From positions 1-64,000 of the forward strand of contig JABMRT010000093.1 in NCBI GenBank assembly GCA_013202295.1: a DNA stretch of 64,000 bases, read 5' to 3'. This document shows positions 11,323 to 35,542 of this stretch, piece by piece (position 1 is the stretch's first letter; the number at the start of each line of letters is the position of its first letter). The DNA is from Candidatus Zhuqueibacterota bacterium (GTDB taxonomy: Bacteria; Zhuqueibacterota; QNDG01; JABMRT01). The notes under the pieces are model-generated. The model was not told the DNA's origin. It saw only the letters and a program-made list of their open reading frames with translations, and did not search any database. A program made the translations under genes and the position numbers.

Positions 11323-11351
11323 AGGCTCTATACTGTTTTGAGAGGGGAGAC

Positions 11352-11636
11352 CTAATCAACAAATATAAATTCGCCACGGATTTTCACGGATGCAAACCGA
11401 TTTCAAATGATGAGACGCTTGCACTCAATTTTTCCTTTTTCCGGAACTGGTGAACAGTCCGACTGTCAGTCAAGTCGTTTTCAATGCGACTAACAATTGG
11501 AGCGCATCTTTCGAATTGTGCTTTATCAACACTTCCAGTTCAATAATATAACCTTGAAAAACGGATCAGATCATAATGGCTATTTTTTTCACTCATTTCA
11601 TTTTATCCGTGCTTCATCCGTGTTTATCTGTGGCCC
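11352..11636 (-). repeat. Copy A of a TIR-bounded GxxExxY element (decayed)
   Basis: About 285 bp, matching copy B at 27038-27325 along its whole length. Imperfect terminal inverted repeats, GCCACGGATTTTCACGGATG (11373-11392) and the complement of 11615-11634, share 16 of 20 bases. The interior on the - strand holds the remains of a GxxExxY gene. The element lies between the carB terminator and an MFS gene. An 18-bp tandem duplication touches its right edge. Confidence 0.75.
11424..11553 (-). pseudogene. Remnant of a GxxExxY (PDDEXK_3-like) gene, copy A
   Basis: Reading the - strand from 11553 gives GYIIELEVLIKHNSKDA, then QLLVALKTT, a stop, and TVGLF with GK. This order (IELK..., QLLxYLKxT, VGLLINFG) is the conserved C-terminal half of GxxExxY proteins, a small nuclease-fold family. 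An in-frame stop after LKTT and the loss of the N-terminal half show that it is dead. The call rests on motif order recalled from the family, not on a search. Confidence 0.65.
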
Positions 11637-11664
11637 TTTTATTAAATGTGGCCCTTTTATTAAA
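11629..11664. repeat. Perfect 18-bp tandem duplication at the edge of copy A
   Basis: TGTGGCCCTTTTATTAAA occurs twice head-to-tail (11629-11646 and 11647-11664). It overlaps the right terminal repeat of copy A and extends its end sequence. It may be a slippage event or a scar of element movement. Confidence 0.8.
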
Positions 11665-11766
11665 TGGATTTTCCAATCCGGCATGATCATTTTCTTCTTT
11701 GAATCCTCTCATTTTTTTCAGTATCTTAAGAGTTGTTAAAATTAATTTTGATGAATCGGGAGCTTT

Positions 11767-18914: not shown

Positions 18915-18971
18915 AAGACTTTAAAGACTCTATATCAAATCTAGTGCGTAGATTAATAAAAAAGCTGACTT

Positions 18972-19171
18972 GCCACAGATTAACACGGATGAAACACGAT
19001 TATAATGACGTTATAGTAGCAAAAAGTACAATCCTAAAAATGAATCGCCATTACTTAATGAATTAGGTAATACCATAACAAAGTTGGATTGCTTATAAAT
19101 TTCGGAAAAGAAAAACTTGAGTTTAAGCGTTTTGTTTAATAACTCTGTGTTAATCGGTGAAAATCAGTGGC
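18972..19171 (+). repeat. Copy C of the TIR-bounded GxxExxY element (short, decayed)
   Basis: About 200 bp bounded by GCCACAGATTAACACGGATG (18972-18991) and its imperfect inverted copy at 19152-19171 (15 of 20 bases). It lies in the opposite orientation to copies A and B and carries the last 20 codons of a GxxExxY gene. It sits in the 490-bp gap before the YIP1 gene. Confidence 0.72.
19053..19139 (+). pseudogene. 3' remnant of a GxxExxY (PDDEXK_3-like) gene, copy C
   Basis: Codons 19077-19136 read NKVGLLINFGKEKLEFKRFV, followed by TAA. This is a nearly intact C-terminus of the GxxExxY family (VGLLINFG...KR). Just upstream, in another frame, LLNELGNT matches the preceding QLLxxLxxT motif, so one frameshift separates them. 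The rest of the gene is missing. It is the clearest of the three remnants and identifies the family. Confidence 0.78.
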
Positions 19172-19408
19172 TAATCATTTTATGTTTATCTCGCACCACA
19201 CAAAACGACATAGAACTTTAAAATCCATAAAACAGTGTTCATTCAATTCAGGATATTTGTTAAAAAATCACTCAAATTGAATTTTCCCGCGAGACAACGG
19301 TTTATCTGTAAAAGCACAGCAAAGAAGCATGAAAATATTCGAAACTTTCAATGGCGTTTTTCGTCTACTCATAAGGTATTTTAAAAGATTAGCACAAAGG
19401 AGGCATCC
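19172..19408. other. AT-rich spacer before the YIP1 gene
   Basis: About 240 bp after copy C with no reading frame or RNA recognised. A clear ribosome binding site (AAAGGAGG, about 19396-19403) for the next gene lies at its end, and the promoter is presumably in this spacer. Confidence 0.5.
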
Positions 19409-27009: not shown

Positions 27010-27037
27010 GGATCTATGTTATTTTATATAGGTAGCA

Positions 27038-27325
27038 CTAATCAACAAACATGAATTCGCCACGGATTTTCACTGATGCAAACCGATTTAAAAAGACGAG
27101 ACGTTTACAATCCAATTCCCCTTTTTCCTAAACGGATGAACAATCCAACTATCACTTAAGTCGCTTTTAATACGATTAATAATTGTAGCTCATTCTTCGA
27201 ATTGTACCTTATCAATACTTTCAGTTAAATAATAACTACTTGAAAAACGGATCAAACTATAGTGGCTATTTTTTCATCTAATCATTTCACTCTATCTGTG
27301 TTTCATCCGTGTTTATCTGTGGCCC
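27038..27325 (-). repeat. Copy B of the TIR-bounded GxxExxY element (decayed)
   Basis: About 288 bp, co-linear with copy A, sharing the outer CTAATCAACAAA and the inner TIR pair (27059-27078 and 27304-27323). The two copies keep the same order throughout but differ by many point changes, so they are old. It lies between the exporter terminator and fni. Confidence 0.75.
27110..27233 (-). pseudogene. Remnant of a GxxExxY (PDDEXK_3-like) gene, copy B
   Basis: The - strand from 27233 reads II, a stop, LKVLIRYNSKNE, QLLIVLKAT, a stop, then VGLFIRLGK. The motif order is that of the GxxExxY C-terminal half, with stops at two points. It aligns residue by residue with copy A (IELEVLIKHNSKDA, QLLVALKTT). 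Confidence 0.65.
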
Positions 27326-27499
27326 ATTTGATTTTAAAAATCCACTCGATTCAACAGAACACCGAATTTCTTATATCCGGATGAAAGCGCTTGATTTTTT
27401 CTTCCTAATTTGCGACCTTAAAACACTGTTTTTTCAATCATCGGGAATTATATCGCATTATAAATCCTCTCCCATTCATGCGGGACAACCGGGATTCAC

Positions 27500-35179: not shown

Positions 35180-35542
35180 GTGACAGACAAGTTAACCGAT
35201 TTCCAACAATTGAATGTCTGGCAGAAGGCCCACGCCTTAACCTTAGAAGTTTATGAAGCCACAAAGAAATTCCCGAAGGATGAAAAATCAGAAATGGTCT
35301 CTTTGATACGGCAATCGGCCATGACCATACCGATTAAAATCGCTGAAGGCTTCATGCGGCGCAGCCCGCGTGAAAAAGAAATGTCCTACAAAGACAGTCA
35401 GGATGCCATTGAGGCTTTGAAATACTATTTGATCTTATCAAAGGATCTGGGACACCTCAAGGAAAATGAAGAGCTGATGCTTTCTGTGGATGAAGTCGGA
35501 CGCATGCTGACCGGATTGGTTCGTTCTACGAAAAATAAATAA
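35180..35542 (+). CDS. Four-helix-bundle protein (23S rRNA intervening-sequence type)
   Basis: A 120-residue protein of the TIGR02436/S23 family. FQQLNVWQKAHALTLEVY, IRQSAMTIPIKIAEGFMR and the R-S-P-R-E-K-E helix are its usual motifs. Relatives are encoded within insertions in 23S rRNA or stand free near other genes. GTG is the start, preceded by AAAGGAGG. Here it is free-standing after sixA, without an rRNA gene or the terminal repeats seen in the GxxExxY elements. Function is unknown. Confidence 0.92.
   Translation: MTDKLTDFQQLNVWQKAHALTLEVYEATKKFPKDEKSEMVSLIRQSAMTIPIKIAEGFMRRSPREKEMSYKDSQDAIEALKYYLILSKDLGHLKENEELMLSVDEVGRMLTGLVRSTKNK

Follow-up and report, generated by a model that had tools for sequence, protein, structure and literature searches.

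The three decayed copies in the window (the whole 64,000-nucleotide stretch of DNA that we analysed) are non-autonomous, MITE-like elements of the ISL3 type, a known kind of mobile element, and we put at about 85% the probability of this account, in which A, B and C are dead elements of that type whose payload is a GxxExxY gene with its own iteron arms. The payload itself is a widespread cassette, formed by a PD-(D/E)XK nuclease gene between inverted iteron arrays at operon junctions in many phyla. The history that we propose begins with one CACGGAT-class cassette line, which would have been captured between ISL3-type ends in this phylum and then amplified; an ISL3-family transposase would have acted in trans on the outer inverted repeats of ~24 bp, generating 8-bp target duplications, and the GxxExxY frame would have decayed after insertion. 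The window copies indicate how a cassette of this sort can be taken up by an ordinary transposon, whose scars are then scattered through a genome.

Limits, ends and remnants of the window copies

Copy A (11324–11665, remnant on the − strand) starts with GGCTCTATACTGTTTTGAG at 11324, 28 bases ahead of 11352, and BLAST alignment with complete copies of the same genome (L003, L008 and copy B) runs from 11324 to 11640–11646. Its left outer terminal inverted repeat, GGCTCTATACTGTTTTGAGAGGGG (11324–11347, + strand), lies in the register of the left ends of copies flanked by target duplications. The right outer repeat is absent from copy A, as judged from the sequence and from BLAST against complete copies, and a tandem duplication of GTGGCCCTTTTATTAAAT (11630–11665, +) sits at the expected right end. 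Further in are two iteron arms, GCCACGGATTTTCACGGATG (11373–11392, +) and CATCCGTGTTTATCTGTGGC (11615–11634, −), the second matching the inverse of the first at 16 of 20 bases. The sequence-only reading had noticed these repeats and taken them for the ends of an element spanning 11352–11636. The arms exist, but not at those limits: the literal ends of the interval agree at only 5 of 20 bases, and none of 63,000 window positions reaches 16 of 20 at that spacing. They are sub-terminal iterons, and the true ends lie further out; the outer inverted repeats that enclose complete copies, GGnTCTATGTTG..(G/T)TGGGTA, had been missed, and the flanks of other copies in the window genome yield a common outer inverted repeat, GGnTCTATGTTGnnTnGAGTGGGTA.

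The interior of copy A carries a C-terminal remnant of a GxxExxY (PDDEXK_3) protein (11431–11547, −; 46% identity over 39 residues, E 5e-6), found by tblastn with intact GxxExxY proteins as queries. Copy B (27010–27363, −) is also decayed; both of its outer ends are present (GGATCTATGTTATTTTATATAGGT and GGTGTTCTGTTGAATCGAGTGGAT), its target duplication is no longer recognisable (4/8), and its GxxExxY remnant lies at 27120–27236 (−; 54% over 39 residues, E 2e-7). Copy C (about 18926–19214, +) has the opposite orientation to copy A, is more diverged, and aligns to copies L032, L033 and L034 of the window genome, with a remnant at 19080–19136 (+; 89% over 19 residues, E 8e-9) and a sub-threshold PF13366 match at 18996–19133. 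The octamer ACTTTAAA, present at 18918–18925 and 19215–19222, is a candidate 8/8 target duplication for copy C; it would leave the right terminal repeat 3 bp short, and the strict register gives 1/8. The sequence-only reading had correctly seen the − strand of copy A as a GxxExxY remnant and placed one recurrence at 27038–27325 and a shorter relative at about 18972–19171; the former proves to be 82% identical, and the repeated unit is longer than stated, with the limits given above.

Relatives of copy A occupy ~30 places in the window genome, many of them at contig edges, as expected of near-identical repeats, which break an assembly. The window remnants match GxxExxY proteins by tblastn only; some of the other copies retain long GxxExxY frames above the Pfam cut-off. 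A further outer end, GGCGCTATGTTGTTTTGAGTGGGT, lies just past the window at the very end of its contig (G000:C74:64097–64120), and identical 24-bp ends also terminate contigs C68 and C123, which makes it probable that the assembly was interrupted there by recent, nearly identical copies.

Outer repeats, target duplications and ISL3 transposases

A mismatch-tolerant search of the window genome with the outer repeat pattern returned 50 matches, against one for the reversed pattern used as control. The same outer ends occur in 20 of 59 relatives from the phylum, with controls near zero. Pairing of the ends gave 39 elements of 121–795 bp, some of the pairs being spurious, and among these 13 carry 8/8 and a further eight carry 7/8 target duplications, where shuffled partners give expected counts of 0.41 and 0.46, respectively. 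The duplications sit exactly outside the outer ends and not at the inner boundary. Three 8/8 duplications come from the window genome (GTATTATT at L003, AAACATTT at L022 and TTAATTTT at L032), the last flanking an element with a near-intact GxxExxY gene. The sequence-only reading had looked to related genomes for a full copy with an intact frame between matching ends, and one is present in a relative (L269, G030:C181): a 517-bp element with matching outer ends, an intact 122-residue GxxExxY frame and an 8/8 target duplication, GGAATATA. It was thus right to picture a mobile GxxExxY unit that spreads together with its ends and, on decaying, leaves MITE-like scars, except that the ends differ from the CCACGGAT arms on which this picture was based.

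ISL3 transposase genes of the same phylum end in these repeats. A transposase with DDE_Tnp_ISL3 and HTH_Tnp_ISL3 domains runs directly into the end GGCTCTATGTTGAAAAGCTGGGTA in G053, ISL3 genes adjoin the matching ends GGTTCTATGTTGATTTGTGTGGGT in G035 and GGGTCTATAACGTTTTGTGTGGGT in G065, and GGTTTTAGGTTGAACCGAGTGTGT is abutted by the C terminus of a decayed ISL3 gene in G002, a member of the window genome's own family. The transposase is an open reading frame in G037, G040 and G053 and is decayed in G002; an intact ISL3 element of 1305 bp in G037 is flanked by an 8-bp duplication, AGAAAAAT. Because same-phylum ISL3 transposases end in the same repeats, we assign the window copies to the non-autonomous ISL3-type elements. 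They share with the ISL3 family and its MITE-like derivatives the terminal repeats, the 8-bp AT-rich target duplications and the occurrence of short non-autonomous copies; they differ in having a GxxExxY cassette inside in place of a transposase. A search of the window genome's own fragmented assembly for an ISL3 transposase, which would have acted there in trans, found none; because many of the copies interrupt that assembly, it may lack an active ISL3 element. Among the relatives recovered, no single intact ISL3 element resembles the window family closely at both ends, and at the ISL3 loci with the best end matches only one end is visible. One 2.1-kb pair of ends in G010 (C59), considered as a possible autonomous copy, encloses a frame that by eye encodes a LysR-type regulator and not a transposase, and its right end is explained by a distinct 341-bp element, which has an 8/8 duplication of its own.

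Other readings of the window copies fare poorly. It is scarcely credible that the resemblance of copies A–C to GxxExxY proteins is due to chance: the frame of copy A does contain stops and its similarity is short, but the tblastn E values of the three copies run from 5e-6 to 8e-9, shuffled elements give no better than 0.008, and the related copies of the same genome carry the long frames already mentioned. A different transposase family that makes 8-bp duplications might instead move the outer ends. IS1595 elements do so too, and the genome contains a single decayed transposase gene of this type, yet we consider an IS1595-like mobiliser quite improbable, as that locus has no such ends within 5 mismatches and matching repeats are found directly at the ends of ISL3 genes in four relatives. 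We rate as highly improbable a unit of GxxExxY gene and iterons that moved itself in the window genome, the outer repeats being part of its own ends and no ISL3 element taking part. Elsewhere, syntenic junctions differ in whether they contain an iteron-only cassette, so that gain and loss of such a unit do not require ISL3 ends; against its having moved itself here, the outer ends also occur without recognisable GxxExxY content (in many elements of G010), the exact 8-bp duplications lie at the outer boundary, and the outer ends abut ISL3 transposase genes in relatives. With the outer ISL3-type repeats as the ends that drive spread, trans-mobilisation, a described mechanism, accounts for the window copies; the statement in the sequence-only reading that no mechanism was known for such movement stands for the inner cassette alone.

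The iteron-framed cassette across phyla

GxxExxY genes of other families have the same inner repeats alongside them without ISL3 ends, and we therefore surveyed 80 GxxExxY loci from bacteria and archaea, representing at least 16 phyla (61 tree rows named to phylum). Flanks of 250 bp on each side were compared with each other, shifted intervals of the same loci serving as controls. Inverted matches of at least 14 were found for 51 of the 74 testable genes and for none of 129 control intervals, the best inverted match averaging 19.3 for gene flanks versus 8.9 for shifted intervals. Each arm is an array of short words that point inward and recur every 9–10 bp, and the words include CACGGAT, CACAGAT, CGCAGAT, CGCAAAT, CACGAAT, ACAGGAT and CGCAGAG. 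Mapped on the protein tree, four word classes require nine changes, compared with 36 for shuffled labels; for the 61 host-named rows, word class requires six changes against a minimum of 11 with labels shuffled within host phylum, and host phylum itself requires 35. Word class tracks the protein tree and not the host phylum, which argues that the iterons accompany the protein when it passes between phyla.

The cassettes lie head-to-tail within operons. Of 43 cassettes whose neighbours could be identified, 38 have a co-oriented upstream gene and 32 are co-oriented with both neighbours, and many start at most ~25 bases from the stop codon of the gene upstream. By eye, their sites include bioA–bioD-like, leu-operon and coxS–coxL-like junctions. 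A cassette separates dnaN from recF (gene names by eye) in G048 and G053, and the congeners G036 and G028 have a bare junction (ATCAATGAATGAAATATGATCCTG and ATCAATGAATGATATATGATCCTG, respectively); this is a clean site, apart from additional A/T-rich bases on the flanks of the insert. Relatives without the cassette also exist for the coxS–coxL, L252 and L253 junctions, where the spacer is variable, and comparison with relatives at the four junctions resolved neither a target duplication of the inner cassette nor exact breakpoints. The suggestion in the sequence-only reading of a GxxExxY mobility not yet described may still hold for these cassettes, which lack ISL3 ends across phyla and one of which is absent at a sister-species junction.

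Ordinary regulation offers another account of the inner iterons, namely that they are operators or terminators of a GxxExxY gene and not cassette ends. They do flank the gene closely on both sides, and they pair when folded as RNA. We judge this account unlikely, given that the whole block is absent from congeners at the dnaN–recF junction, that iteron class follows the protein clade from one host phylum to another, and that fragments of the arrays recur elsewhere in G048 and G053. For the reading of the iterons as cassette ends, recognition by the GxxExxY protein or a partner during movement or upkeep of the cassette would be their most likely role. In the transcript they may also pair as a terminal stem, by analogy with 23S rRNA intervening sequences (IVS): two cassettes folded as RNA bring their arms into a long terminal stem (z −6.5 and −6.0). 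The Coxiella IVS, for which a terminal stem is described, resembles this fold (PMC4990558).

Two further loci deserve mention. The dnaN–recF cassette at L263 (G048:C556) is flanked by two complete iteron palindromes (1655–1740 and 2213–2300), and matches to its arrays on other contigs of G048 and G053 are dispersed solo repeats. At L310 (G056:C239, ~370–970), a gene junction occupied by a GxxExxY cassette in the sister species G033 has another small insert instead, which lies on the opposite strand and looks by eye like a toxin–antitoxin pair; this junction seems to attract inserts. Searches for a relative of the GxxExxY protein in viral contigs, and for GxxExxY in phages, found none; plasmids gave eight records only.

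The GxxExxY protein and the nearest known kinds

The L269 protein matches PF13366 with an E value of 7e-36; it and the L151 protein are far above the cut-off of that family, and L151 also exceeds that of TIGR04256. Residues E29, D68, E78 and Q92 are invariant across 38 sequences and K80 is nearly so, a set that corresponds to the residues of PD-(D/E)XK enzymes. A confident AlphaFold2 model (pLDDT 95) has a predicted PD-(D/E)XK-like fold, for which the nearest experimentally solved structures are SSO0001, a Cas4 nuclease (Z 9.1), and restriction-endonuclease-like proteins (3ijm, Z 8.3). GxxExxY is expected to be an active nuclease. Comparison with defence systems gave only a weak type IIG match (E 0.003). 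NCBIfam gives the family (TIGR04256, PF13366) a name without a function, and we found no description of flanking iterons; the window differs from other members in holding decayed remnants only. The open-access literature searched contains no relevant description of the cassette architecture, GxxExxY, PF13366 or four-helix cassettes; the window element itself is of a known kind.

The nearest known kinds to the cassette architecture are IVS/S23 elements and REP sequences with their TnpA-REP (RAYT) proteins. Like the GxxExxY cassettes, 23S rRNA IVS with an S23 frame place a frame of ~100–130 residues between stem-forming inverted repeats, and are sporadic and horizontally acquired, with no mechanism of movement given in the literature consulted (PMC4990558). 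S23/23S-IVS genes (PF05635) outside rRNA share the architecture here: in the same genomes, 21 of 30 lie between inverted arrays, compared with none of 54 controls, so that the architecture is not unique to GxxExxY. Their iteron words differ (for example, GCTGGAT, GTGAAAC and CAGTTAT; loci L340–L369). GxxExxY cassettes are set apart from IVS by encoding a PD-(D/E)XK nuclease and using 9–10-bp iterons, and by the position of the window copies and surveyed cassettes between protein genes rather than within 23S rRNA. With REP and TnpA-REP/RAYT they have in common a small nuclease-type gene with its own short inverted repeats and related repeats elsewhere in the genome (PMC8266576, PMC2817692). The modelled GxxExxY fold is PD-(D/E)XK-like and not HuH (Y1), and arrays of ~10-bp iterons in gene-sized, operon-internal cassettes contrast with REP palindromes of ~20–40 bp. 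The window has an S23 gene of its own, a 23S_rRNA_IVP/S23 four-helix-bundle gene at 35207–35515 (+; PF05635, E 1e-23), whose flanks, unlike those of the 21 of 30 relatives, contain no inverted iteron arrays.

A broader scheme can be offered tentatively, at rather less than even odds: GxxExxY may be the enzyme of a class of minimal mobile cassettes not yet described, a stand-alone PD-(D/E)XK nuclease that would recognise clade-specific inverted arrays of ~10-bp iterons and move or copy its own gene into operon junctions of bacteria and archaea, S23/IVS may form a second branch, and ISL3 elements may hijack the cassettes secondarily. GxxExxY is a common family with an unassigned role, and iteron framing in at least 16 phyla gives it a testable one as a mobile nuclease cassette, linking it to a long-standing question, the spread of 23S rRNA IVS with S23 genes.

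Two variants of the protein were also observed. One GxxExxY-like lineage (L031, G000:C117; L141, G002; L143, G006) has neither iterons nor mobile ends, and its usual ExK positions are changed (for example, ILMIRS instead of IVELKA); judged by these residues it looks like a settled, possibly inactive paralogue. Proteins of ~270–280 residues in G028, G048 and G053 contain two tandem GxxExxY domains.
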